This document shows, piece after piece, positions 141 through 38,921 of a stretch of DNA of 39,159 nucleotides. The first letter of the stretch is position 1; each line of letters starts with the position of its first letter. Position numbers and translations under genes: made by a program. This DNA is from Roseofilum acuticapitatum BLCC-M154 (lineage in GTDB: Bacteria; Cyanobacteriota; Cyanobacteriia; Cyanobacteriales; Desertifilaceae): the NCBI RefSeq assembly GCF_030068475.1, contig NZ_JAQOSP010000154.1, positions 1-39,159 of the forward strand. Reading direction: 5' to 3'. Under the pieces are notes generated by a model. That model was not told where the DNA came from, searched no databases, and was given only the letters and a program-made list of their open reading frames with translations.

Positions 141-1445
141 TGAGTTTTCGATGTTGTTTTTCATGGGTAGGCTGATGGTAAAGGTGGTTCCTTGTTGGGG
201 AATCGAGTGACATTCGAGGAGACCCTCATGGTGTTGAATGATTTGATGAACGATCGCCAATCCTATTCCTGTGCCTTTTCCGGAGGGTTTGGTGGTGAAT
301 TGATAGTCAAAAATTTTATCTTGAATGTCTTCAGGGATACCGAGTCCGTTATCAGTAATGCGAATTTGGATGAGGGAGCGATCGCGGATAAATTCGGTTT
401 CGATGGTAATCTCACAAGTCTCTTCTGACGAGTCGGTTTGTTTTTCGCAGCGTTCATCTAAAGCATCAATACTATTGGCCAACAGATTCATAAACACTTG
501 ATTGAGTTGTTCGGGATAACAGAGGATAGGGGGCAGCTCTTGATAGTGTTTTATGACTTCAATCTCTCTTCGATTACTATTACTTTTCAGACGATGTTTG
601 AGAATTAGTAGGGTACTTTCGAGTCCATCATGAAGATCGGATTCTACGGGCTTATCGTTATTTTTGCGCGAAAATTTACGCAAAGAAAGACTCAGTTTTT
701 GGATGCGATCGCTACCGATTTTAATCGAATCCAGAAGACTGGGCAAATCTTCTAACAAATACTCTAAATCAATCGTTTCTGAATGTTCAACAATAACTTC
801 TGTGGGTTGGGGATATTCCTGCTGATAGAGTTTCAGATGCTCCATTAAACTCTCGACTCCTTCTTGGGCAAATTGGAGATTATTAGTAATAAATCCCAAG
901 GGATTATTAATTTCATGGGCAATCCCGGCAACCAGTTGTCCTAAAGTCGCCATTTTTTCACTTTGAACTAACTGAACTTGAGTATTTTGTAAGCTTTCAA
1001 AAGCGCCCAATAGAGCAGCCGTTCGTGCTTCAACTTTTTGTTCTAACTTAAAGGTTAAGTCCCGAATTGTTAATTGATTTTTTACTCTGGCTAAAACTTC
1101 TTCACACTGAAAGGGTTTACTAATATAATCTACACCACCAACTTGAAAGGCTTTCACCTTATCAATAACATCATCTAAAGCACTAATAAAAACCACTGGA
1201 ATTTCAGCCGTCTCTGGATTATCTTTTAAGCGTTCACAGACGGTATAGCCATCTAAATCCGGCATTTTAATATCCAGAATCACTAAATCTGGAGGATCGG
1301 CTTGACAAGAGTTTAAGGCCATTTCTCCATTGAGGGCTTTACGAACTTTATATCCTTGTTCGGCTAACATCGTGGAGAGTAAGCGAATATTATCTGGGGT
1401 ATCATCGACAATTAAAAGGCTTTTTGAATCTAAGTTATTAACCAT
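138..1445 (-). CDS. REC-domain sensor histidine kinase (response regulator fused to HisKA/HATPase)
   Basis: The 435-residue protein begins with a receiver domain (about 8-125): acidic pair VDD at 14-16, phosphoacceptor Asp58 in VILDIKMP and conserved Lys110 in ISKPF. A coiled-coil linker (about 128-165) leads to a HisKA segment with His177 in AGIAHEINNP. The HATPase domain follows, with an N-box (MNLLANSIDAL), G1 (DNGLGIP) and G2 (GKGTGIGLAI). This REC-first, sensor-less layout is common in cyanobacteria, where such soluble kinases receive phosphate from another kinase or protein partner. It probably works with the REC-GGDEF and hybrid kinase genes immediately upstream on the same strand (45-bp gap). 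The stop codon TGA at 138-140 belongs to the terminal sequence of a dispersed repeat, so the original C-terminus may have been slightly altered. The signal it senses cannot be told from sequence. Confidence 0.93.
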   Translation of the reverse strand: MVNNLDSKSLLIVDDTPDNIRLLSTMLAEQGYKVRKALNGEMALNSCQADPPDLVILDIKMPDLDGYTVCERLKDNPETAEIPVVFISALDDVIDKVKAFQVGGVDYISKPFQCEEVLARVKNQLTIRDLTFKLEQKVEARTAALLGAFESLQNTQVQLVQSEKMATLGQLVAGIAHEINNPLGFITNNLQFAQEGVESLMEHLKLYQQEYPQPTEVIVEHSETIDLEYLLEDLPSLLDSIKIGSDRIQKLSLSLRKFSRKNNDKPVESDLHDGLESTLLILKHRLKSNSNRREIEVIKHYQELPPILCYPEQLNQVFMNLLANSIDALDERCEKQTDSSEETCEITIETEFIRDRSLIQIRITDNGLGIPEDIQDKIFDYQFTTKPSGKGTGIGLAIVHQIIQHHEGLLECHSIPQQGTTFTISLPMKNNIENS

Positions 1446-16269: not shown

Positions 16270-19200
16270 ATGAGCTGGCTTGATTTCCTCTTTAAACCCG
16301 TGTTTTCCAGTAATTCCGCCTCGAAAACTCATAAAACCTTTATCTTAGAACCCATCCTGACCCCTTCCGGTCTAGTTGATTCTCTGGATGATGGGCCAGA
16401 CTTCGATGGTGATAGCACAGAAAACACCGTAGAAAATACGGAATTAGACTTAGATAACCAGCCAACTGAAAATTTATCAGACTATACAGTTGAATCCGAG
16501 GCGCTTTTACCCGAAATCCCGGATGAAGACTTAGAGGAAATTCCGTTTATTTATGCATTAGGGGAAGAAACAGACGCAGACACTCAGCAGGAATCCTTAG
16601 AACCTACCAGCACAGAGGAGAATTCTGTCTTAATTTCCGATTCAGAAACAGAACTGGATGGGGAAATTACGCAGGAACCTGTCAAGTCCGTAAAAGCAGA
16701 AAATTCTTCTGTCTTAGCTCTAGATACAGACACTGAAGTAGATGAAGAAATCACTCAGCCAAGAGCTAAGTTAGCAACCGATGTAGAAGCGGATGGAGAA
16801 TTACCAGAGGAGTTATCCACTTTGGAGATACCCGAAGAGGTCATTTCTCAACCCAAATTTGACTCCGGTTACTTCGTGGTGGGAGAAACGGGAGAGATAG
16901 AGGTGGACTATCTTTTTGATGGCGGCAAGTATAAGGGAGAATTGGGGATTTTTAGTCTAGACGGAATGGACGAATATGACCCCGATACAGAGGATTTTAT
17001 TGCCGAAGCAGCGAGAAGATCTAACTCTAATTCAGAACTCGGTCATATTATCATCTCAGACCGCACGGAAGGCGCATATTTTAGCGGAGAACTCGGAGAA
17101 GCAGACCACAATTCCGGCGAATATCAAGGCGTAAAAACCTTCAATATGCACTCTGGGGATAGCTTCGCCATGATGCTCGTTCCTAAAGGAAGCGTGCAAC
17201 GGGTGGTGGACAATCCTGGAATTGGCGGTGCTGCGCGTCCCCTATTTTCCCTCGCGACTGCGAACCCAGAAGATGGTTTTCACATGGGACAAATTGCCGA
17301 TGTCACCGGAGAAGGCAATGTTTTTGTCTTTGAAGACTTGCGCGTAGATGGTAAATCTGACGGAGATTATAACGATCTAATTTTCCGCATCAAGGGTGCA
17401 ACTGGAAAAGCTGTACAGTTAGATAACGTGATTGATACAGCACAAGATTGGCGCGACTCAGATTTAGGACAGGAATTAATCAATTATGTGACAGGAGATA
17501 AGAGTGGGGTTGAAGAGGCTGATAATCTAGAAGATGTTACTGATACTGAAGCGGTTATTGAAAATATTCTTGTTACTGATAATCGTAGTAGCGAAGGGAC
17601 TTTCGCCCCTACATCAGAGTCGGGTGAGGGTAATAATGATACAGAATTAGAAGGCGATAAGGTTCTCCATGGCGATGAAGATCGCCCCACTACCGACACT
17701 CCCACTGAAGATATCCCCGTTGAAAATAATGGGGAAAATGACGGTAACCGTAGGGGCGAACGGCCGTTCGCCCCTACATCTACGACATTAGAAGAGTTAA
17801 AAACCGGTGAATTTATCGTTGGCGAAACCGGAGAAGTTACCGTTGATTTCCTCTTTGACGGAGGTGGATATAAAGGCGAAGTTGCCATCTTTAGCTTAGA
17901 AGGATTAGAAGATCTCGATCCTAATTCTGAAGAATTTAGAACTGAAGTCTTACAGCGCATTACTGATGAATCCGATCGCGGTCAAATCATCATTTCCGAT
18001 CGCACAGAAGGCGCGAAATTCACCGGCGAATTAGGCGAAGTTGACCGCAACTCTGGAGACTATTCTGGCCCGAAAACCGTGCAGATGGAACCGGGAGAAA
18101 AATTTGCCGTTGTCCTTGCTCCCAAAGGCAAGATTGAATGGGCTGTTGAGAATCCAGATAGACCTTTAATGTTTTCCCTAGGTTCTCAGCAGTTAGCGGA
18201 CGCGACTGGAGAAGGTCAGACGTTTGCTTGGGAAGATTTGGATGTCGAGAAGAATTCGGACAAAGATTACAATGACCTCATTTTCCGAGTCAAAGGGGCA
18301 ACCGGTAAAGCGGATCATATCGATGAACTGATTGACTCCGAAATGGTTTGGCAAGATACAGATTTAGGTCAAACTATTCTCGATTATGGAAAACCCGAAA
18401 CCCAATTAGGCAGCGCCGATCGATTGTACAATCCCACTGAACCCGTTATTATCCAGGGAAAAATCACCGATCCAGATGGACTCAATCAGATTGAAAAAGT
18501 AGAAATCTTCTTACAAAAAGATGGAGGAAAATGGATTGATGTAACTGAAGAAGTGGATATAAAAATGACTTCAGACTATCAGAAGATTAGTTACGAGAAA
18601 GAAGGCTTAGAACCCGGTCACTATGAACTGAAGATTGTGGCTCAAGACAATGCTGGCAAGGTTGCAGAGCCTACGGTTGAGCAGTTTACAGTGCTGTCGG
18701 TGAGTAAAGGGCAAGAATTGAGCGATCGCGTTAAATTTGCCATCGAAAAAGCCACCAATCTCGGCAACTACGAACCCGAACAACTCGAAAATGTTCGTCA
18801 GTGGGTTGTCAGCGTTCAAAATAGCAAATATCACCCACAATTAGCCAATAATTTAGGAGCAACTGATCTAGGAGAAACTGGCCATATTCCCCATACCTAT
18901 ATTTGGGAATTTCCAGAAAGCTTAACCGCCCAAGAAGTAGCCGAAACACTTGGCTCAGAATACAAAGTTGAGTTTGCCTATCCTCTGGTTCAGTATCAAG
19001 TCAATCAGCATTCTCCCACCAATGAACCCTTAGTCCAAAGTGGAGAGCAGTGGCACTTAACTCAATCCCAACTCTCTCAAGTTTGGGACAATCAAAATAT
19101 TCAAGGACGCGGTGTTGTAATTGGTGTGGTTGATAGTGGTTTTGAAATCAACGACCCCACTAGAAACTTACAAGGTCATCCTGATTTATTACCTAACTAT

Positions 19201-22200
19201 AACTCAGATCTAAGTTATGACTTTGACGAAGAAGACCCCTATCCCTCTCGGAAAATTGATTATGAGCTAGAAACCAACCGATCTAAATCAATTGTCAATC
19301 CCATTGGCACTCCCCTTAAACATGAATTTGCATTTCGTTCTGTTAATGATGGCATCATAGACAGTCTCGTTATTAACATGGATATTCGCCATCCCGACAT
19401 CAACAATCTAGAAGCATTCTTAGTCAGTCCTCAAGGCACTAGAATTCCCCTACCGAATCTTCAGCCTAGATCCTATTCTCTCTCTCTTCCAGAATTCCAA
19501 AATAACAGCGCCCAAGGAGAATGGACATTAGAAATTATCAATAACTCCGCAGAATCTGGAGTTTTAAGAAACTGGTCTTTAGACTTTGAAACCCGTCACT
19601 TACATGGCACTGCTGTAGCCGGAATAGCAGCAGCAAGTGGCGATAATCAGTTTGGCGGTAGTGGGGTTGCTCCTGAAGCAGAATGGGCAGGATTACGCAT
19701 GGGAGCAGATGGTACAACTGACACAGAAGTAGCCAATGCCTTGTCTCATCATCGCCAAGAGATTGACATTTATAATAACAGTTGGGGACTCGGATTCTTT
19801 CATACTTTACCCAATGCCCAAAAAGCGATGGAAGAGGGTGCTATTTTCGGGCGAGATGGTAAAGGTAATATCCAAGTATTTGCTGCTGGAAATAGCGCAC
19901 AAGCAGGTGGAAATGTCAGCTACAATAGCTTTGCCAACTCTCGTTACGCCATTGCTGTGGCTGCCATCGACAGTGAAGGAAAACACCCCATTTATTCAGA
20001 ACCAGGCGCTTCCCTTTTAGTCTCTGCCTATTCTAGCGGTACTCCAGACAAAAACATCGTCACCACAGGCTTTTATCCTGAAGGCAACCCAGAAAAAGAT
20101 TACTACATCAATAATTTTGGTGGGACTTCAGCCGCCGCGCCATTTGTGTCTGGAGTTGTGGCTTTAATGTTAGAAGCTAATCCCGATTTAACCCTTCGGG
20201 ATGTGCAGTATATTTTGGCGAAAACGGCTGATAAAAACGATCCTAACCATAAAGATTGGGTGAACAACGGCGCAGGATATCATGTTAATCACCAGTATGG
20301 TTTTGGCGCGGTTAATGCTGATGCAGCAGTGGCAATGGCTAAGACTTGGAAAGCCGTAACAGAGCTAGAAACCATCGAGGAATACTCTTATGTGGGGAAA
20401 AGAATTCCTGATGCAAATCAGAATCAAACCCCAACCACACCTGTTACCGATTCAATTTCCATTCCCTCTAACCCAGAACAGGATTTGAACCTCGAATGGG
20501 TCGAAGTTGAATTTAGTGGCAACCATCGTTATCATGGCGATTTAGAGATTGTATTGGAGCATGAATACATTAATGAACAAGGGGAAAAGGTAACCACTTC
20601 CTCCATTTTAGCCAAGCAGCATAGGAGTGATAAATACAAGCCGGATAGTCCAGAAAATAATCAGTATTATTGGTCGTTTAGTAGCGCTCGTCATTGGGGT
20701 GAACCGTCTCAAGGCACTTGGACATTGAAGGTGACGGACAAATTTTATCATGGAAGCTCGGTACACAGGGAAATAGATCCCTCTCTGTGGAATGTGTTTA
20801 CCGATTGGACATTGCGTTTACATGGTACGAATCCTAACGCAGTTCCTAAACCAAAAGTAACGATTAGTTCTCTGGATAAAGAAGCGACGGAAGAGGGGAA
20901 TGCGGCACAATTCTTGGTCACTCGCACCGGAGATACGGATGAACCGTTGACGGTGAATTATACGTTGCGCGGGAGTGCTAAAAATGGCGAAGATTATCAG
21001 ACATTAACGGGGACAGTGACGATTCCTGCGGGTAGAGAAACTGCAACTATTCCTGTGGTTCCTTTGTATGATTATGCTCTGGAAGGGACAGAAACTGTTG
21101 AGATTGAATTACAAGCAGCTTCGGGATATCAATTAGATGGTGTGGTTACTGCAACGGCAACTATTGCTGATAGTAAAACCACATCTCGTTATGGCCCGTT
21201 TGTGTATGTCAATCCTCAAAATGGTCATCAATATATTCTGTCTCAACCGGATACTTGGTTAGGCGCTCAGGAACAAGCGCAAGCTTTGGGAGGTAATTTA
21301 GTTGGGATTAACAGCGAAGCTGAAAATGATTGGTTGTATGATACCTTTGGTTCTGGTCGTAAATGGATTGGGTTAAATGATAGTGAAATTTACGGCAATA
21401 CGGAAGGGAATCATCGATGGGTAAATGGTGAGGACTTGACGTTTACTCCCAATCGTTTTCGCAAGGATAATGTTCAGCATACGCCAGACGGTGAAGACTT
21501 CTCTGAAACGAATTTCATGGAACCTGGTGGTTGGAATGATATGCCTCACGATTTGCCTTCTATCTTAGGAGAAAGTTTTGAAAATCCGGTTGGCATTATC
21601 GAAATTGACCCCAGTACCCTAGAGAAACCGATTGTCAATGTCATGGTCACCGATGATGAGGCTGGGGAAGATGGCAATGCGGGGCAAATTGTCATTACTC
21701 GCGTGGGAGATTTGACCGAGGAGTTGACGGTTCAGTACAGTCTCGATGGTGATGTCACGAATGGCGTTGATGTTGCCGAGTTGAGTGGTGAAATTACCAT
21801 TCCTGCGGGTGAGTCGTTGGTGGTGCTGCCGATTCTGGCGCTGTATGATGGCGTGTTCCAAGAAGGAGAAGAAAAGGCGATTGTTAAGCTCAGTTCTAGC
21901 GATAATTATGCCATTGGAACCCATGGGACGGGGGAAGTGAAAATTAAGGACAATCACAAACCTTTTGAACCGGAATTTGTCCATCAATGGGGAACTTCTA
22001 GCTCCGATCGCGGTCAAGCCCTAACCTCTGATGCTGCGGGTAACATCTATGTCGTTGGCGTAACCAAAGGCAACTTAGATGGCAATACCAATGCTGAGGA
22101 GGTCAGTGAATTTTCCGCAGATCCGTTTATTACTAAGTACGATGATAGCGGCAATAAACTCTGGACGAAACAACTCGGTACAACCGGATTCGATTACTAC

Positions 22201-25200
22201 ACCGAAGTTGCGGTTGATGAGAATGGTAATATCTTTGCTATTGGCTATGATGACAGTCATCCTGTGGGGACTTTAGGAGGAGGCGATCACAAGTTTGCTA
22301 AATGGGATAGCGAAGGCAATTTACTCTGGGAAAAACACATTGGTACTCCCAATCATGAGTTTTCTAGTGGATTAAAACTAGACCCTGATGGCAATCCGGT
22401 AATCTCCGGTTGGACTTGGGGAACGTTTGGCGAAACGACTCAAGCAGCAACGGATTACTTTATTGCTAAATACGACACTGATGGTAATGAAATTTGGATT
22501 CAACAGAATGGAACCGACGAAGAAGATCGCGGCCGGGATGTAGTCATTGATAGTGCCGGTAACATCTACGCGGTCGGCATTACGGAAGGCAATCTCGATG
22601 GCGAGAATGCCGGAGAATCAGATGTTTTCGTCACTAAATACGACGCTGACGGTAACGAAATCTGGACAAAACAATTGGGTACAGAAGACGATGAGAGTCC
22701 CGGAAAATACGGCGCGTATCGCAATGTGAGCGTCGATATTGACGACTCTGGCAAGCTCTATATTGCGGCTGAGAGCAAAGGTACGCTAGAAGGTCATGAA
22801 AGTCAGGGTTCAATGGATGCGCTTCTATTCAAGTTAGATGAGGAAGGCAATACCGTCTGGACGCAACAATTTGGAGGTGCAGGCAATGATCGCACCACTG
22901 GCATTAAAGTAGATCCTGACGGTAACTTCTATCTCAACGGTTGGACAAACAGCTCCATCAACGGTCAACCGGGTTTAGGCAAAAATACACCATTCTTGGC
23001 TAAATTTGACAGCGAAGGTCAGAACCTGTGGACAACCATCTACGGAACCAGCGATGCGGAAGATTTAACCTACGATATCGAAGTTGACAGCAGTGGCAAT
23101 GTCTACACCACCGGCTATACCTGGGGCGATTTTGGCGGTGAAAATGCCGGACATATAGACATTTGGCTGGCGAAATTCCCCGCCACTCCCGTACCTTCGG
23201 AACCGACCATTTACACCAATCCAGTCACCGGAAGTCAGTATTTCTTGACCACAGGGGATACCTGGTTAGGCGCACAGGAACAAGCCCAAGCTGCTGGCGG
23301 TAACTTGGTTTCTGTTAACAACGCCTCGGAAAATCAATGGTTATTCGATACGTTTGGCGGAAACATGCGCTGGCTCGGTTATACGGATAGTCCGATCTAT
23401 GGCGCTCAAGAAGGGGAATTTCAGTGGGTAAATGGCGATTCATCAACCTATAGTAATTGGTTCTATCTCTCACCCAATAATGTTCCTTTGACGAGAGATG
23501 GTAAAGACTTGCTAGAAGGTGAAGACTTTGCTCACAACAATTTCCGCTTCCCCGATCCGAATTCTCCCACAGGGTTTACTGAGTTTGGAAAATGGAACGA
23601 TTTGCCAGCAGATTACTGGAATTTAGCAGGCATTGTCGAAATTCCTGGTACTCCTGAACCGATTCCCGATAACGCTTGGATACGTCAGTTGGGAACCGAA
23701 GGGAGCGATCGCACTTCCGGAGTCACCGTTGATGATTTTGGTAACGTCTACGTCGTTGGTACTACGGACGGCAATTTAGACGGTGAGAATGCCGGACAAG
23801 AAGATGCCTTTGTCGCCAAATATGATGTCGATGGCAATCTCTTGTGGAAGAAACAACTGGGAACTGTCGCCATTGATGAAACTCGTGGTATTACCGTTGA
23901 TGAAACTGGAAAAGTTTATATTACCGGACACACTTTTGGCGATTTAGAAAGCGCCAACCAAGGACTCAGTGATGTCTTTATCCTCAAACTAGATGCCGAT
24001 GGTCAAGAATTGCTGCAAAAACAAATCGGCAGCAGCAGCGATGATTATGCCACGAGCATTACCGTAGACGAAACCGGAAATATCTATCTGTCAGGATTTA
24101 CAGGTGGAAATCTCCACGGAACTCATGCCGGAGGTTACGATCCTTGGGTGGCCAAATATGATGCTAATGGAGAACCGATCTGGAGCGATCAGTTTGCCAC
24201 CTCCAGCCATGAAGGAGCCATTGATATCGCCATCGACAGCTTAGGCAACACTTACCTCATCGGCCATACCTATGGCGCTCTCGGTGGCGAAAATGCCGGA
24301 AGTCAAGATGCCTTTATCATTAAATACAATGCTCAAGGCGTTAAAGAATGGCAAAAACAGCTTGGTACAGCAGAGTACGAAGAAGGTCATAGCCTGGCCA
24401 TTGACAGCGAAGATAATATCTACATCACTGGCAATACTCAAGGTTCCCTAGGCGGGGAAAATCAAGGCTTGCAGGATATCTTTATCACCAAATTTAATCC
24501 CCAAGGTGATGAACTCTGGCAACAGCAATTTGGCTCAATTTCTCAAGATTCAGCCTCCCGTCTGGCGATCGATCAAAATGATGTGATTCATCTGGCTGGA
24601 TTTACCACCAACACCTTAAATGATCAAACCATAACCGGGGGTCAAGATGCCTTCCTGATGCTCGTCGATAAAGAAGGCAAACATTTAGAAACCCAAACCC
24701 TGGGAACAGCGAATAATGACACAGCTCAAGATATTGTCATTGACCGCAGTGGCAACTTCTATCTCACCGGATATACAGAAGGAAATTTGGCCGCCGAAAA
24801 TGCTGGGGGCAAAGATTTTTGGGTATCTAAAAATCAAGTTCCCAACCCCGGTTATAACTGGACGTGGACATATTTCGGCGAAGACTTACACAACGGAGAC
24901 AATAACACTCGCCTAGAATCCACCCCCAATACCGATGCTGCCAAAGCCGACTTTTTAGCCAATCTCGATAACATTGAAACCATTGATTTCGAGACCTTTA
25001 ATCAAGGCGATAAACCAACCGTTCTAGACTTTGGCTCTACCAAAGCAACCGTCACCGGTTATTCAATCGTTCGCGACGTACCCACCGCAACCGATGGTGG
25101 CATGTTCCCCACCTCTGGCGACCAATTCTTGCAAAGTTCTGATGATACCCAATTAACCCTGGAATTTGACAGTCCTCAATCTGCCTTTGGATTCACAGCA

Positions 25201-27411
25201 ACGGACGCTGAAGGAAATCCTTTCACACTTATCCTCCATCATGAAGATGGCACAACCAGCGAGTTAAATATTCCCGCTCAAGCCGTTTGGCCAGAAAATT
25301 CCGGTTCTGCTTTCTTCTACGGCATCACGGATATTGATTCCCCCTTTACCAAAGTCACGTTAACTCGACCTGGAGGGACTGAACGCATTGGACTCGATGA
25401 TTTAGTCATTGGCAACCTTAAACCTGACGTTCTCCTGAAGACTTCTACCCCTCCCAATCAAACCCTCCATCTGGCTTATCACGAGGATACCCCTCTAGAT
25501 TTAAGTAACATTATGGTCACTGACCCCGATGGAGAAGCCACGGTTAAATTAACCCTGTCCGAAACCGATGCCGGAGCGCTTTCTACCGCAACATCGGGAA
25601 CCGTAACCTCAACTTACGACCCGGAAACCGGTGTCTGGACAGCAGAAGGTGCAGTTAACCACTTAAATCAACTCTTAGCCGATTTAGAGTTTAAACCCAC
25701 CGCCAATTCTGCCGAAAGCGTCACCATTGCCACGGAAATTATCGTCCAGTCGGGTCTCGTTTTAACCGGAACCATCCAGTTAACCGGACTACCGAAAAAT
25801 GATGATCCCACCATACAAGTTGAACCCACCCAAGAATGGGTACAGCAACTCGGAAGCACCGGTTATGATGCTTTAGGCGATGTCGCCACTGATGCACAAG
25901 GCAACGTCTTCATCGCCGGATGGGTACATGGCGATATCGACGGCAATGAATACCAAGGCGGTTCGGGTTTACCGAGACACACTGGCGATGGTTTGCTGAC
26001 CAAATATGACCGAGATGGCAATAAACTCTGGACAACCACATTAGGCTCGGCTGATGATGACGGATTTCATGGAGTAGACACCGATAGCCAAGGCAATGCC
26101 TATGTCGTTGGTTCAACTTTGGGTAGTTTAGACGGTCACGAACCTTTAGGAAAGAACGATGCCTTCTTTGGCAAATATGACGGTGAAGGCAACTTAATTT
26201 GGTCGCGACAAATTGGCACGAGTGAACATGATAGGTTAAGCAAATTGATTGTCGATAAAGATGACAATATCTACACCGTGGGAGCCACTTCCGGAATTAT
26301 GGAAGGGACAAATAGTCATTATGGCTATGATGCTTTAATCCAGAAATGGGATAGTGATGGCAATTTACTCTGGACACGACAAATGACTTCAACTGAAGCC
26401 AGTAGTAGTTCAGCCAGCGATGTCACCCTTGATGAAGAAACCGGAGACTTGTTACTAACTGGTTATGCTACCGGTACTCTTGATGGACAAACTCCTGTTG
26501 GTCATTGGGATACGATGGTTGCTCGATACGATAAAGACGGCAACAAAATCTGGGAGCGTCAATTTGGCACAACCGAACAGGATTTAGGACGCGCAATTGA
26601 TACGGATTCTGAAGGAAATATCTATGTTTCTGGCATGGTTACCGAAGCCTTAGAAGGGGAAACCCACGAAGGAGCAAGAGATGCTTTTGTCGCCAAACTC
26701 GATAAAGACGGTAACCTCATTTGGACAGAACAATTTGCCCAAAATGGTAGCACCGATCCCAACCGCCAAGGTGACGATCATGCCTATGGCATTGGAGTCG
26801 ATAATAATGACCAAGTTTACGTCACCGGTCATGTCGGCGGCCCCTTAGATGGCAACCCCCATGCCGGTAGTATTGATGCCTTTATCACTGGACTCGATAC
26901 GAACGGTAACCGTAGTTGGAGCCAACAATTTGGTTTCCCTGGTTGGGATGGTTTGCAGCAAATTGAAATTGATGAGGATAACAATCTCTTCATCGCCGGT
27001 GCAGTTGAGGGTGCAATGCCAGGACAAACATATAACGGTTCCCTCGATCCCATTGTTGCCAAATACAGCTTCAACCAAACCTATCAAGAAGATACCCCGG
27101 TTGAACTCAACAACATCTATATCAACGATGAAGACACCAACGAAACCCTAACCGTCACTCTCGCACTCTCCGACACCAACGCCGGAACCCTAACCAGCAA
27201 AACCAACAACGCAGCCGAAACCACCTTTGCCAACGGCACTCTCACCGTCACCGGAACCGCGCAGGATGTCAATGCCATCCTCCAGGATCTGCACTTTAAT
27301 CCCGCAACCGGTTATACCGAAACCATCACCATTGACACCTCCGTTACCGACGGCAAGAATAACCCCGTAACCGGCGCAACCCTTACCTTGAATGGAGTCA
27401 CCACTCCTTAA
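16270..27411 (+). CDS. Giant mosaic subtilisin-family protein (S8 protease, P-domains, Calx-beta, C-type-lectin-like, 21 SBBP repeats)
   Basis: The product has 3713 residues. Approximate order: acidic low-complexity start (20-190); DUF4114 (196-382 and 511-681, both ending DYNDLIFRxKGATGKA); Ig-like (718-808); propeptide-like (815-945); S8 protease (about 946-1355) with Asp955 (VVDSGF), His1112 (HGTAVAG) and Ser1287 (GGTSAAAPF); a P-domain (1018-1108) lodged between Asp and His; second P-domain (1370-1518); Calx-beta (1528-1636, 1784-1896); two C-type-lectin-like domains (1641-1781, 2311-2461) with WND calcium motifs; three seven-repeat SBBP blocks; a beta-sandwich (2861-3051); cadherin-like segments (3056-3178, 3604-3713). 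The triad is intact, so proteolysis is expected. No Sec signal, RTX repeats or sorting tail is visible, so the export route is unclear. DxDGN-type loops suggest calcium dependence. A surface or extracellular role is inferred. No strong ribosome site precedes the ATG. Confidence 0.93.
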   Translation: MSWLDFLFKPVFSSNSASKTHKTFILEPILTPSGLVDSLDDGPDFDGDSTENTVENTELDLDNQPTENLSDYTVESEALLPEIPDEDLEEIPFIYALGEETDADTQQESLEPTSTEENSVLISDSETELDGEITQEPVKSVKAENSSVLALDTDTEVDEEITQPRAKLATDVEADGELPEELSTLEIPEEVISQPKFDSGYFVVGETGEIEVDYLFDGGKYKGELGIFSLDGMDEYDPDTEDFIAEAARRSNSNSELGHIIISDRTEGAYFSGELGEADHNSGEYQGVKTFNMHSGDSFAMMLVPKGSVQRVVDNPGIGGAARPLFSLATANPEDGFHMGQIADVTGEGNVFVFEDLRVDGKSDGDYNDLIFRIKGATGKAVQLDNVIDTAQDWRDSDLGQELINYVTGDKSGVEEADNLEDVTDTEAVIENILVTDNRSSEGTFAPTSESGEGNNDTELEGDKVLHGDEDRPTTDTPTEDIPVENNGENDGNRRGERPFAPTSTTLEELKTGEFIVGETGEVTVDFLFDGGGYKGEVAIFSLEGLEDLDPNSEEFRTEVLQRITDESDRGQIIISDRTEGAKFTGELGEVDRNSGDYSGPKTVQMEPGEKFAVVLAPKGKIEWAVENPDRPLMFSLGSQQLADATGEGQTFAWEDLDVEKNSDKDYNDLIFRVKGATGKADHIDELIDSEMVWQDTDLGQTILDYGKPETQLGSADRLYNPTEPVIIQGKITDPDGLNQIEKVEIFLQKDGGKWIDVTEEVDIKMTSDYQKISYEKEGLEPGHYELKIVAQDNAGKVAEPTVEQFTVLSVSKGQELSDRVKFAIEKATNLGNYEPEQLENVRQWVVSVQNSKYHPQLANNLGATDLGETGHIPHTYIWEFPESLTAQEVAETLGSEYKVEFAYPLVQYQVNQHSPTNEPLVQSGEQWHLTQSQLSQVWDNQNIQGRGVVIGVVDSGFEINDPTRNLQGHPDLLPNYNSDLSYDFDEEDPYPSRKIDYELETNRSKSIVNPIGTPLKHEFAFRSVNDGIIDSLVINMDIRHPDINNLEAFLVSPQGTRIPLPNLQPRSYSLSLPEFQNNSAQGEWTLEIINNSAESGVLRNWSLDFETRHLHGTAVAGIAAASGDNQFGGSGVAPEAEWAGLRMGADGTTDTEVANALSHHRQEIDIYNNSWGLGFFHTLPNAQKAMEEGAIFGRDGKGNIQVFAAGNSAQAGGNVSYNSFANSRYAIAVAAIDSEGKHPIYSEPGASLLVSAYSSGTPDKNIVTTGFYPEGNPEKDYYINNFGGTSAAAPFVSGVVALMLEANPDLTLRDVQYILAKTADKNDPNHKDWVNNGAGYHVNHQYGFGAVNADAAVAMAKTWKAVTELETIEEYSYVGKRIPDANQNQTPTTPVTDSISIPSNPEQDLNLEWVEVEFSGNHRYHGDLEIVLEHEYINEQGEKVTTSSILAKQHRSDKYKPDSPENNQYYWSFSSARHWGEPSQGTWTLKVTDKFYHGSSVHREIDPSLWNVFTDWTLRLHGTNPNAVPKPKVTISSLDKEATEEGNAAQFLVTRTGDTDEPLTVNYTLRGSAKNGEDYQTLTGTVTIPAGRETATIPVVPLYDYALEGTETVEIELQAASGYQLDGVVTATATIADSKTTSRYGPFVYVNPQNGHQYILSQPDTWLGAQEQAQALGGNLVGINSEAENDWLYDTFGSGRKWIGLNDSEIYGNTEGNHRWVNGEDLTFTPNRFRKDNVQHTPDGEDFSETNFMEPGGWNDMPHDLPSILGESFENPVGIIEIDPSTLEKPIVNVMVTDDEAGEDGNAGQIVITRVGDLTEELTVQYSLDGDVTNGVDVAELSGEITIPAGESLVVLPILALYDGVFQEGEEKAIVKLSSSDNYAIGTHGTGEVKIKDNHKPFEPEFVHQWGTSSSDRGQALTSDAAGNIYVVGVTKGNLDGNTNAEEVSEFSADPFITKYDDSGNKLWTKQLGTTGFDYYTEVAVDENGNIFAIGYDDSHPVGTLGGGDHKFAKWDSEGNLLWEKHIGTPNHEFSSGLKLDPDGNPVISGWTWGTFGETTQAATDYFIAKYDTDGNEIWIQQNGTDEEDRGRDVVIDSAGNIYAVGITEGNLDGENAGESDVFVTKYDADGNEIWTKQLGTEDDESPGKYGAYRNVSVDIDDSGKLYIAAESKGTLEGHESQGSMDALLFKLDEEGNTVWTQQFGGAGNDRTTGIKVDPDGNFYLNGWTNSSINGQPGLGKNTPFLAKFDSEGQNLWTTIYGTSDAEDLTYDIEVDSSGNVYTTGYTWGDFGGENAGHIDIWLAKFPATPVPSEPTIYTNPVTGSQYFLTTGDTWLGAQEQAQAAGGNLVSVNNASENQWLFDTFGGNMRWLGYTDSPIYGAQEGEFQWVNGDSSTYSNWFYLSPNNVPLTRDGKDLLEGEDFAHNNFRFPDPNSPTGFTEFGKWNDLPADYWNLAGIVEIPGTPEPIPDNAWIRQLGTEGSDRTSGVTVDDFGNVYVVGTTDGNLDGENAGQEDAFVAKYDVDGNLLWKKQLGTVAIDETRGITVDETGKVYITGHTFGDLESANQGLSDVFILKLDADGQELLQKQIGSSSDDYATSITVDETGNIYLSGFTGGNLHGTHAGGYDPWVAKYDANGEPIWSDQFATSSHEGAIDIAIDSLGNTYLIGHTYGALGGENAGSQDAFIIKYNAQGVKEWQKQLGTAEYEEGHSLAIDSEDNIYITGNTQGSLGGENQGLQDIFITKFNPQGDELWQQQFGSISQDSASRLAIDQNDVIHLAGFTTNTLNDQTITGGQDAFLMLVDKEGKHLETQTLGTANNDTAQDIVIDRSGNFYLTGYTEGNLAAENAGGKDFWVSKNQVPNPGYNWTWTYFGEDLHNGDNNTRLESTPNTDAAKADFLANLDNIETIDFETFNQGDKPTVLDFGSTKATVTGYSIVRDVPTATDGGMFPTSGDQFLQSSDDTQLTLEFDSPQSAFGFTATDAEGNPFTLILHHEDGTTSELNIPAQAVWPENSGSAFFYGITDIDSPFTKVTLTRPGGTERIGLDDLVIGNLKPDVLLKTSTPPNQTLHLAYHEDTPLDLSNIMVTDPDGEATVKLTLSETDAGALSTATSGTVTSTYDPETGVWTAEGAVNHLNQLLADLEFKPTANSAESVTIATEIIVQSGLVLTGTIQLTGLPKNDDPTIQVEPTQEWVQQLGSTGYDALGDVATDAQGNVFIAGWVHGDIDGNEYQGGSGLPRHTGDGLLTKYDRDGNKLWTTTLGSADDDGFHGVDTDSQGNAYVVGSTLGSLDGHEPLGKNDAFFGKYDGEGNLIWSRQIGTSEHDRLSKLIVDKDDNIYTVGATSGIMEGTNSHYGYDALIQKWDSDGNLLWTRQMTSTEASSSSASDVTLDEETGDLLLTGYATGTLDGQTPVGHWDTMVARYDKDGNKIWERQFGTTEQDLGRAIDTDSEGNIYVSGMVTEALEGETHEGARDAFVAKLDKDGNLIWTEQFAQNGSTDPNRQGDDHAYGIGVDNNDQVYVTGHVGGPLDGNPHAGSIDAFITGLDTNGNRSWSQQFGFPGWDGLQQIEIDEDNNLFIAGAVEGAMPGQTYNGSLDPIVAKYSFNQTYQEDTPVELNNIYINDEDTNETLTVTLALSDTNAGTLTSKTNNAAETTFANGTLTVTGTAQDVNAILQDLHFNPATGYTETITIDTSVTDGKNNPVTGATLTLNGVTTP
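17588..17612. repeat. Degenerate GTAG...CCCCTAC palindrome inside the giant gene
   Basis: An imperfect relative of the palindrome at 17750-17777. The right arm TTTCGCCCCTAC is nearly the same, while the left arm has diverged (GCGAA pairs with TTCGC). It encodes SSEGTFAPTS, sharing FAPTS and reading phase with the second copy. Confidence 0.65.
17750..17777. repeat. Perfect 28-base palindrome inside the giant gene
   Basis: The left arm GTAGGGGCGAACGG and its exact reverse complement CCGTTCGCCCCTAC abut with no spacer. The frame stays open and encodes RRGERPFAPT in the linker between the two DUF4114 domains. It has the form of the intergenic palindromes at 6512-6536 and 28532-28560. Confidence 0.92.
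21972..23180 (+). repeat. SBBP repeat block 1 (seven repeats) in the giant gene
   Basis: Seven protein repeats of about 57 residues (residues about 1901-2304). Each begins with a W-x-(K/Q)-Q-x-GT-like strand, continues D-x-x-GN-x-Y-x-x-G and closes with KYD-x-DGN. Seven such units are the number needed to close a beta-propeller. Confidence 0.85.
23671..24845 (+). repeat. SBBP repeat block 2 (seven repeats) in the giant gene
   Basis: Seven repeats (residues about 2468-2858), opening with WIRQLGTEGSDRTSG and ending with LETQTLGTANNDTAQ plus its strands. This block follows directly after the second C-type-lectin-like domain. Confidence 0.85.
25833..27069 (+). repeat. SBBP repeat block 3 (seven repeats) in the giant gene
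   Basis: Seven repeats (residues about 3189-3600), from EWVQQLGSTGYDALG to SWSQQFGFPGWDGL plus its strands. It lies between the two cadherin-like segments. Confidence 0.85.
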
Positions 27412-27582: not shown

Positions 27583-28191
27583 ATGTCTTATTCTTTTTGG
27601 ATCGAAGAAACTGACTATACGGCGACTGGCAATTATGAATACATTCCACAAAACAGTGGTTATCTACAAATTCAAGACAATACTAACCCTGGTAACGAAA
27701 CCATAGAACTGCCCTTCCTCTGGTGGTTTTCCCACTGGTCCTATTACTATAATCCCTTCTTTTATTGGTGGGAAGGAGAACTGACAGCTTCGGAACCCAC
27801 TACTCCAGACTATATTAATGATTTGCAGTTTATCAAGTATGAAGACAGCAGTACCTATGGCACGGAAAACTTTTACTATTTAATTGTGCCCAAAACTGAA
27901 ACCAATTACTTCACGAATTTAGAGTTTTGGAGTGCCGATCTCGATGAATACGATCCGACGATTGATCCCTTAGCTTTTGCCTCCATTCTAGGGGAGGGCT
28001 ATGAAGTTGACAATGTTACTTATTCAGAGCTGGGATCGGAGTTAGGGATTTGTGATTTAGCGAATTGTTCCCCCGCAACTTCTGTACCGGAAGCGTCTTC
28101 AGTCATGGGTGTGTTAGCCCTTGGAGTGGCGGTTGTGGGTGTGGCAATTAAACGGAAATTTTTTCCAAAACAGGGCGCTAAAGCTTCTTGA
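27583..28191 (+). CDS. PEP-CTERM-like protein without N-terminal signal
   Basis: The 202-residue protein ends with a PEP-CTERM-like tripartite tail: motif VPEASS (PEA in place of PEP), hydrophobic helix VMGVLALGVAVVGVAI and basic cluster KRKFF. Such tails direct exosortase-mediated sorting to the cell surface, but these proteins normally also have a Sec signal peptide, and here the N-terminus is plain (MSYSFWIEETDYTATGNYEY). The start is well supported: TAGGAGG lies 7 bases before ATG. The body is rich in Tyr and Trp (PFLWWFSHWSYYYNPFFYWW) and otherwise unrecognised. It lies 171 bp after the giant protease on the same strand and may be a partner or substrate. Repeats begin right after its stop. 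Confidence 0.82.
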   Translation: MSYSFWIEETDYTATGNYEYIPQNSGYLQIQDNTNPGNETIELPFLWWFSHWSYYYNPFFYWWEGELTASEPTTPDYINDLQFIKYEDSSTYGTENFYYLIVPKTETNYFTNLEFWSADLDEYDPTIDPLAFASILGEGYEVDNVTYSELGSELGICDLANCSPATSVPEASSVMGVLALGVAVVGVAIKRKFFPKQGAKAS

Positions 28192-37223: not shown

Positions 37224-37691
37224 ATGTTAAGTAGCGTTGACCGCTTGCTATTTGTGCGAGGTGTGCCCATCTTCAAAGAGTTACGGGATGATTTTTTGGT
37301 GCGCCTCGCCTCAATTATGGATGAGCTATCGTTTCCGGCTGGGCAAACGATTTTTACCCAAGGGCAAGAGGGACGCTCTTTATATATTGTGGTGTCTGGA
37401 CGGGTACGGGTACATATTGGCGATCGCGATTTGGCTTACTTAGATAAGGGCACTACGTTCGGGGAGATGTCCCTGTTTGATGCGGAACCGCGATCGGCTT
37501 CGGTGACGGCGATCGAAACTTGCGACTGTTTGGTTTTAACTCAGCAACAACTCTATGATGCCATTGATGAAACCCCAGGCATTGCCGTTAATATTATTCG
37601 CTTGCTCTCTCGACGCATTCGCGAGTTAAACCAGAAAATTAACGCCCAAGAAAGTAAAATTCAAGAGTTACAACTCTCGAATAAACATTAG
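37224..37691 (+). CDS. Cyclic-nucleotide-binding domain protein
   Basis: The 155-residue protein is one cNMP-binding domain (about 12-125) followed by a short coiled coil ([20 protein letters not shown]). The phosphate-binding cassette [16 protein letters not shown] keeps both key residues, Glu81 (ribose) and Arg90 (phosphate), so it probably binds cAMP or cGMP. There is no HTH domain, so it is not a CRP-type regulator. GGAG lies 5 bases before ATG, 18 bp after the MFS-HEAT stop, so the two are co-transcribed and this is likely a regulatory subunit. It converges on the next gene, overlapping its stop by 4 bases. Confidence 0.92.
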
Positions 37692-38299
37692 GCGATCGTT
37701 TCCTGGCTGACGGCATAGATTAAAATTCCCAGTATTTTCGCCATTTGGTTAATATAATATTCCACTGAATCAATATAAACCGTTTTATCTTCCAGTTTCA
37801 GGAATTTCCAGATATTGCCAGAGGTGACGACCCCATAAATCACGGGAATTTCATTTCCTTCTTGTGCATTAAACACTTGAGCCGCTAACATTTCTGCTAA
37901 ACATTGACCCAAACCAGATTTTATGTCTTCTTTTTTGGCTTCCACTAGGGTAACGACTGGCGAGGTAATAAACAAATTCTCTGGAGAGAGACTGATTAAG
38001 AAGTCACATACTCCATTCAATCCTTGGGTGCTATCCACATTAAAGTCTGAACCCGAAAAGAGACTGATTTGATAGTGTTTTCTGCGTCTTAATTCCAGTA
38101 AAATCGGGGTGATAATCATCTCCGATCGCGCCTTTTCTGTATTAATACCCAGAGCTAAGGGAATACTTTCTTGCAGAAATGTGGTCAGCATTGGACTCGG
38201 CTCCGATTCTGGAATTTCTGCAAAGAGATTGAGATTTTCATGGAGTTTTAAGCCAAATTGTTTAAGGAGTTGATTGATTTTGAAGTCACTGTAACCCAT
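37688..38299 (-). CDS. PD-(D/E)XK-nuclease-like protein, paralogue 2
   Basis: The 203-residue protein keeps the arrangement Glu60 ([14 protein letters not shown]), Asp99 (GVCDFLISL), Glu120-x-Lys122 ([10 protein letters not shown]) and Gln132 ([10 protein letters not shown]), the pattern of PD-(D/E)XK nuclease folds. It ends in a helical segment ([18 protein letters not shown]). It aligns without gaps over about 190 residues to the gene just upstream, so the two are tandem duplicates. The start codon lies 14 bases inside the upstream gene, implying coupled translation. No restriction or CRISPR neighbour tells its role. Nuclease activity is inferred only from the motif. Confidence 0.8.
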
Positions 38300-38921
38300 T
38301 TTCCCTCTCCTCCTGGGACAGCAAGGATGTAATCATACTCACTAAAATACCAAGAATTTTTTCCCTTTGGTTAATGTAGTATTCCACACTATCGACATAA
38401 GCGATATTCCCTTCAAGTTTAATGAATCGCCAAGCCGTTCCTGATGTGACTGCGCCGTAAATGGTTTCAAGGTTTTTTTGTTCTTGTTGATTAAATTTCT
38501 GAGCAGCAACCAAAGTGGCAATACATTGTCCTAATCCGCCAATGATATCGTCTTTTTTGGCTTCAACAATAATTAAAACTGGAGCGTCAATGATTAATTG
38601 AGATTCAGAAAGACTGAGGAGAAAATCACAAGCTCCATTCAAGCCTTGTTCTGGTTCTACATTAAATTCTCGTCCAGAAAACAGGCTAATTCGATCGGTA
38701 ACCAATCGCCGCACTTCTAATAAGATGGGAGCAATAATCATTTCTGAGCGCGATTTCTCGGTGTTGATTTCACTGGCTAAGGGAAGATTATAGTTGAGTG
38801 TGGTCGTCAGATACTCACTCGGTGTAATGTCGGAAGTGTCGGTAAATAAATTTTGCTTATCTTTTAGGGTTAAGTGGAATTGTTTGAGAACAGAATTGAG
38901 GGTAAAGTTGCTGTACGACAT
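38286..38921 (-). CDS. PD-(D/E)XK-nuclease-like protein, paralogue 1
   Basis: The 211-residue protein has the same motif positions as its neighbour: Glu60 ([14 protein letters not shown]), Asp99 (GACDFLLSL), Glu120-x-Lys122 ([10 protein letters not shown]) and Gln132 (GLGQCIATL). The shared EYYINQxxKILGIL tail and the N-terminal SxFxxNxxLKQF helix complete the duplication. It may act as a homo- or heterodimer with the second copy; this is inference. ATG 38919-38921 is the first gene of the pair; its upstream region has an inverted repeat (38949-38990) and then a dispersed repeat. Confidence 0.8.

Follow-up and report, generated by a model that had tools for sequence, protein, structure and literature searches.

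We analysed a 39,159-nucleotide stretch of Roseofilum acuticapitatum BLCC-M154 (contig NZ_JAQOSP010000154.1, hereafter the window), which contains an open reading frame (ORF) of 3713 aa on the forward strand (16270..27411; ORF list and Pfam) coding for a large subtilase whose catalytic core is split by a P-domain. All features of this protein given below lie on the same (+) strand. A Pfam scan of the whole protein recovered two DUF4114 domains, a Peptidase_S8 match (residues 946-1346), two P_proprotein matches (best stretch 1032-1106), two Calx-beta and two C-type lectin domains, and 16 SBBP stretches. These are arranged as two DUF4114 domains, a propeptide-like segment, the S8 core with its nested P-domain and a C-terminal P-domain, followed by Calx-beta, C-type lectin and SBBP beta-propeller repeats.

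A P-domain nested in the catalytic core

The Peptidase_S8 core (residues 946-1346; 19105..20307), split by the insert, matches PF00082 with an E-value of 1.6e-44 and has furin and kexin as its best matches in PDB. It presents the S8 motifs and a triad in the order Asp-His-Ser, namely Asp955 (19132..19134), His1112 (19603..19605) and Ser1287 (20128..20130), together with the oxyanion-hole Asn1208 (19891..19893), which aligns with furin Asn295; these features place it in family S8. In alignment A6, which consists of 49 rows (48 of the 80 named loci described below plus the window protein), all four residues are kept in each of the 24 inserted rows and the 25 other rows. The reading frame, residue numbering and nucleotide positions of the original prediction are correct, as are its three triad residues and its spacing of 157 residues between Asp955 and His1112. 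The possibility that the true catalytic Asp is a different residue was ruled out, the D955 column being Asp in 49/49 rows.

When the protein was compared to PDB with phmmer, furin aligned in two pieces (query 116-185 with chain 13-78, and query 300-681 with chain 85-447), leaving window residues 996-1109 unaligned in place of only six furin residues (186-191, in the numbering from His194). This gap and the strands of the model described below define an inserted segment at about residues 996-1109 (19255..19596), whose limits are edges of local alignments and are accurate to a few residues. The insert is located between Asp and His, as originally proposed, while the limits of 1018-1108 given at that time are corrected here to about 996-1109. 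Scanned alone, it matches the Pfam family P_proprotein (PF01483) with an E-value of 6e-12 and a score of 45.9 bits (cut-off 21), which supports the earlier identification of the extra segment as a P-domain. The match covers residues 1032-1106 (19363..19587), is recovered from both the whole protein and the insert alone, and is nested within the Peptidase_S8 match. Moreover, a hidden Markov model (HMM) built from the C-terminal P-domains of insert-free relatives gives 28.5 bits with the window insert, and no more than 7.7 bits with any of 620 shuffled inserts. A second, canonical P-domain (residues 1388-1519; 20431..20826) follows the core, again as predicted, with a PF01483 match at 20491-20745 and strands in the model.

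An AlphaFold2 model of window residues 812-1520 (709 residues, 49 aligned sequences) has a mean predicted local distance difference test (pLDDT) of 89.6 and a predicted template modelling score (pTM) of 0.92, values that are hard to reconcile with an insert held only loosely in place. Strands make up the insert from model residue 184 to 298 (window 995-1109), with pLDDT of 83-96 in blocks of ten residues; the extra beta-domain originally envisaged is predicted as a confident, all-strand domain in a model that is overall closest to furin and kexin. Indeed, chains of these two enzymes are the top PDB matches in Foldseek, with template modelling (TM) scores, normalised to target, of 0.82-0.87 (furin 0.83-0.87). 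This fold search covered the model as a whole. The insert itself may have the beta-sandwich (jellyroll) fold of P-domains, to judge from its all-strand model and from the solved P-domain structures that the insert profiles match. In subtilisins, the catalytic Asp lies at the end of a strand and His and Ser at the start of helices. The model has the same context, with D955 ending strand 139-144, H1112 starting helix 301-310 and S1287 at the start of helix 475-492, and, from this DSSP context and the match to furin, we infer that the triad D955/H1112/S1287 comes together.

Related inserts from other genomes point in the same direction. The alignment of inserts between Asp and His (site 1), named A4, excludes L051, which carries a different Asp-His insert, and leaves 26 inserts to scan, 19 of which match PF01483 at an E-value of 0.01. 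With the HMM of C-terminal domains, 17 of the 24 P-type site-1 inserts score above the best shuffle (7.7 bits), and the unlike L051 insert scores -2.3 bits. In profile-profile comparisons, the window group of inserts matches C-terminal P-domains with an E-value of 1.3e-11, and the Phormidium group matches these domains at 9.6e-7 and the window group at 2.2e-8, while the Lyngbya group finds the window group at 9.2e-15. When searched against PDB at an E-value of 1, the insert profiles each retrieve seven distinct sequences, which all belong to furin or to an Aeromonas enzyme and are matched behind the catalytic core. Taken together, a P-domain nested in the catalytic core between Asp and His is an architecture that we regard as confirmed, with very little doubt left.

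Distribution of the insert

A second gene with the insert is present in the same genome (C63, Asp-His spacing 170), as well as a third P-domain subtilase (C147) where this spacing is 38. In 386 genomes of the phylum, a two-sequence profile matched in 22, some of these matches not extending over the insert. In the order, 388 genomes were searched: a match of any kind at an E-value of 1e-10 is present in 230, and at least 39 (with at least 49 matches) have one across the whole inserted region, starting at model position 4 at the latest and reaching at least position 288, with up to six candidates scored per genome. Thirty of these loci, the window included (L115-L144), have Asp-His gaps of 122-205 residues. 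Within the genus, the insert is found in three of six genomes among the matches listed, one of them that of the window.

A profile search of genome contigs with 14 sequences gave 133 pattern stretches, of which 94 were confirmed, and the best 80 of these 94 are the named loci; the same search with the two-sequence alignment gave 68 pattern stretches, none confirmed, and the profile search of viral contigs gave 208, also with none confirmed. According to gaps measured with HMMs, the 80 named loci include 23 with an Asp-His insert of P-domain size, 47 without any insert, seven with other, shorter or longer inserts, and three that are unclassed (L045, L075, L089). The Asp-His gap exceeds 40 residues in 30 of the 80, and those not counted as P-domain inserts are L051, L054, L064, L072, L080, L093 and L099. 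Most insert-free relatives with a recognised Asp motif have Asp and His about 30-56 residues apart. All 23 inserted named loci are titled cyanobacterial, and those of the 80 titled as other phyla (Planctomycetota, Verrucomicrobiota, Pseudomonadota, Actinomycetes, and one titled only 'bacterium') are all among the 47 insert-free ones. The same 23 loci all match a C-terminal P-domain as well, as judged with an HMM derived from the same alignment. The phylum and order genome sets overlap with the named loci (for example L125 and L039), so that these counts are not independent. In one inserted relative (G426:C62:5213-6364), which is a possible pseudogene, an in-frame TAG lies within the stretch matched.

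Two insertion sites and their history

The core has a second site that can accommodate a P-domain. Site 2 is the loop before the catalytic Ser (residues 1253-1275; 20026..20094), which has about 22 residues in the window protein; in some relatives, an insert of about 161-177 residues here separates the NYN..ANSR part from the catalytic Ser motif. Among the 75 named loci whose gap could be measured, six carry such an insert (L038, L039, L040, L042, L052, L068), two of them (L052 and L068) with no insert at site 1. It is also present in six loci of the L115-L144 set of 30, which overlaps with the named loci. Five of six site-2 inserts scanned match PF01483 (best E-value 1.5e-18). In two relatives with both sites filled, each P-domain is recognisable on its own: the site-1, site-2 and C-terminal pieces all pass the Pfam cut-off singly in L138 (6.2e-19, 1.4e-18 and 5.7e-24, respectively) and in L034 (4.9e-5, 1.8e-18 and 7.4e-13). 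A model of L040, which has inserts at both sites, again has furin and kexin as best matches, with a pLDDT of 80.6, a pTM of 0.83, and a stretch of the second insert (530-567) below pLDDT 50.

Other modules also occupy the Asp-His loop. In L080 (Oscillatoria sp. HE19RPO) and L099 (Laspinema palackyanum D2a) it is filled by tandem repeats of ELFGLSNRIRWSEDPE type, about 480 residues in all, an array that takes the place of the P-domain in the same S8 core. By eye, the L051 insert (about 100 aa) is helical-looking, those of L054 and L064 are W-rich (about 60 aa), and that of L072 has about 111 aa; none of these appears P-domain-like.

In a tree of the core from which the insert columns were removed, three clades carry site-1 inserts, which requires at least three changes. 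By the approximately unbiased (AU) test, a single clade is not rejected for site 1 (p-AU 0.155) and is rejected for site 2 (p-AU 0.0017). In a tree of P-domains, 24 site-1 and six site-2 inserts are split from 38 C-terminal P-domains with a Shimodaira-Hasegawa approximate likelihood-ratio (SH-aLRT) support of 99. A recent duplication of the C-terminal P-domain of the same protein was considered as the source of the insert and dropped, since the inserts stand apart from these 38 domains and since, for four of six insert groups, the P-domains of PrcA-like proteases are a slightly to clearly better match than the C-terminal ones (a worse one for the other two).

Concerning rates of divergence, the insert has a mean pairwise identity of 27%, the lowest of six segments, as compared to 46% for the C-terminal P-domain, 50% for the propeptide and 52-61% for the core parts (276 pairs; 253 for the propeptide). 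Nevertheless, the ratio of nonsynonymous to synonymous substitutions (dN/dS) in the insert is 0.09-0.48 in the eight of nine close pairs that allowed its calculation, which indicates that the insert is kept.

The Asp-His loop and the loop before Ser would act as ports in which one type of P-domain was placed repeatedly, or to which it moved from gene to gene. A single P-domain lineage would then represent a movable exosite cassette of cyanobacterial subtilases, fitted into either of two core loops and sometimes both, with the Asp-His port also taking other modules, and substrate choice would be changed by swapping the module beside the cleft. We put this cassette scenario forward tentatively, and think it somewhat more likely to be wrong than right.

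Proposed function of the insert

The window protein joins features of kexin/furin-like subtilases (S8B) with clear departures from them. It has the P-domain adjoining the core on its C-terminal side, but it lacks the short Asp-His loop, having 157 residues with 996-1109 in place of six furin residues, and it lacks an acidic S1 subsite. In furin, S1 is formed by Asp258 and Asp306, and S2 by Asp154 and Asp191 (PMC11859198, cited, like the other papers below, from an excerpt). Asp258 and Asp306 align with Phe1176 and Asn1219 of the window protein, and in the Asp306 column 22 of the 24 inserted rows have Asn and two have Tyr, as compared to Asp in 10 of the 25 other rows. Where furin has S2 Asp154, the window protein has Ser, and 17 of the 24 inserted rows have Asp. 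Judging from these alignments, furin-like specificity for basic residues was probably lost in the window enzyme, and, as the S1 acids are absent, we do not file it as a proprotein convertase by function. It is a large, probably extracellular and probably active kexin/furin-like subtilase.

Because the insert replaces furin residues 186-191, a stretch that ends at the S2 residue Asp191, we infer that it would lie beside the substrate cleft as an exosite or a gate, and would select or exclude folded protein substrates, while the C-terminal P-domain would retain its usual role in folding and stability. A precedent comes from furin, where the nanobody Nb14, bound to the P-domain, blocks bulky substrates and not small ones (PMC5037460), so that a neighbouring module can act as a substrate excluder. 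The gating of the active site suggested in the original prediction is plausible, and for an exosite or gate role in general we see about even chances. The explanation as a whole, a probably active kexin/furin-like subtilase with a nested P-domain beside the cleft acting as exosite or gate, has in our estimate a probability of roughly 0.55.

Several observations weigh against it. Seven of the 26 site-1 inserts scanned have no PF01483 match at an E-value of 0.01, and with the HMM of C-terminal domains two of 24 tie with the best shuffle and five score lower. The Lyngbya group is the weakest of the four site-1 groups against the C-terminal profile (4.7e-5), and the Phormidium group hardly matches the Microcoleus group (0.022) or its own site-2 inserts (0.02-0.05 for the two comparisons together). 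In whole-protein scans of L009 and L031, a single P-domain stretch passes in each, the C-terminal one; the L031 insert scanned alone does pass the PF01483 cut-off (34.2 bits). The P-domain tree is based on 101 columns and 68 rows, has long branches and carries a warning that long branches are joined. Rapid divergence of the insert could reflect relaxed constraint rather than adaptation to substrates. If specificity for basic residues was indeed lost, the logic of the furin subsites may not carry over.

The main rival explanation is that the insert is mostly a structural brace, stiffening the core and aiding autoprocessing of the propeptide, similarly to the jellyroll of CspB or the P-domain of kexin. 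The CspB jellyroll is wedged between propeptide and subtilase, and its deletion makes the enzyme more protease-sensitive and reduces autoprocessing (PMC3567191). The pTM of 0.92 would also suit a brace, in that it suggests rigid placement. However, the 23 inserted named loci all have a C-terminal P-domain match to begin with, 47 of the 80 relatives cope without any Asp-His insert, unrelated sequences fill the same loop in some relatives, and the insert is the least conserved of the six segments, all of which makes a brace unlikely in our view, if still well worth considering.

We find it harder to defend the insert as a tolerated passenger, or as an adhesive or calcium-binding module with no effect on catalysis, lodged in a merely permissive surface loop. 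The dN/dS values in eight of nine close pairs indicate that it is kept, it ends at a furin S2 residue, and the chain already has lectin-type binding domains elsewhere, even if this loop clearly tolerates very different inserts (the repeat arrays of about 480 residues, the W-rich stretches and others) and the protein is rich in lectin-type, Calx-beta and SBBP repeat domains; this explanation appears improbable. As for an artefact, be it misassembly, a wrong Asp or a chance P-domain match, we found no support for it, and it is contradicted by the second gene of the same genome and the other genomes that share the insert, by the L138 insert, which matches alone at 6.2e-19, and by the invariant D955 column; its probability is close to nil.

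The cyanobacterial subtilases offer a natural experiment, where the same core is found empty, with one P-domain at either site, with both, or with a repeat array. The role of a P-domain outside its place as C-terminal folding aid thereby becomes testable, and the Asp-His loop suggests itself as a permissive place at which gates could be engineered into proteases.

Relation to known systems

Furin and kexin are the best matches by structure and sequence and share the succession of core and C-terminal P-domain, but they have no insert between Asp and His, and the furin S1 residues are absent from the window protein. The best PDB match of the site-1 profile is region 466-590 of the Aeromonas sobria serine protease (3hjr), and that of the site-2 profile is region 470-558 of the same enzyme. 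By its position in the 600-residue chain, region 466-590 is C-terminal to the core and not nested. In S8 proteases with an inserted PA domain, this domain is located between His and Ser.

Lid-like PA domains are inserted in the catalytic domain of some S8 proteases (PMC2605481), so that a foreign domain sits in the core as it does here, but it is a PA domain and not a P-domain. The same survey, of 91 prokaryotic genomes, includes S8 proteins with P_proprotein, one entry having two P-domains, and writes P_proprotein after the subtilisin domain (PMC2605481). Since it writes the inserted PA domain likewise, a nested P-domain could be hidden in that notation.

In CspB of Clostridium, the subtilase domain is split by a beta jellyroll of about 130 aa, which the authors describe as functionally analogous to P-domains, rather than as a P-domain (PMC3567191). 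From the spacing of the CspB triad (Asp126, His183, Ser494), the jellyroll would lie between His and Ser, like site 2 and unlike site 1. The window protein differs in having its insert between Asp and His and a short site 2, but the CspB-like position is filled in some of its relatives. No Csp chain was among the PDB matches of the insert profiles A4 and A5 at an E-value of 1, the presence of such a chain in the database not having been checked. The excerpt of PMC9549277 does not mention a P-domain insert, and, in agreement with the original prediction, the titles and openings of abstracts listed from the open-licence literature included no case of a P-domain between Asp and His, which falls short of proving that none is described. 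Inserted domains are already known from S8 cores, and it is the P-domain at the Asp-His position that we did not find described in this literature.

Other features of the protein and the window

The propeptide-like alpha/beta segment (residues 815-905; 18712..18984) consists of helices and strands that precede the core in the AlphaFold2 model. The Pfam scan of the 3713-aa protein gave no propeptide match, and relatives L006 and L009 have a Fervidolysin_NPro-like match below cut-off. The single NCBIfam model above cut-off for the whole protein is NF047494, an SBBP beta-propeller lipoprotein of the LipL53 family, and automatic annotation could therefore take its name from the repeats and overlook the protease.

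Just downstream, an ORF of 202 aa (27583-28191) possibly codes for another exported protein, its tail being what we take to be a PEP-CTERM-like sorting motif. Further along, on the minus strand, two adjacent ORFs of 203 and 211 aa (37688-38921) look alike by eye and may represent a tandem duplication.

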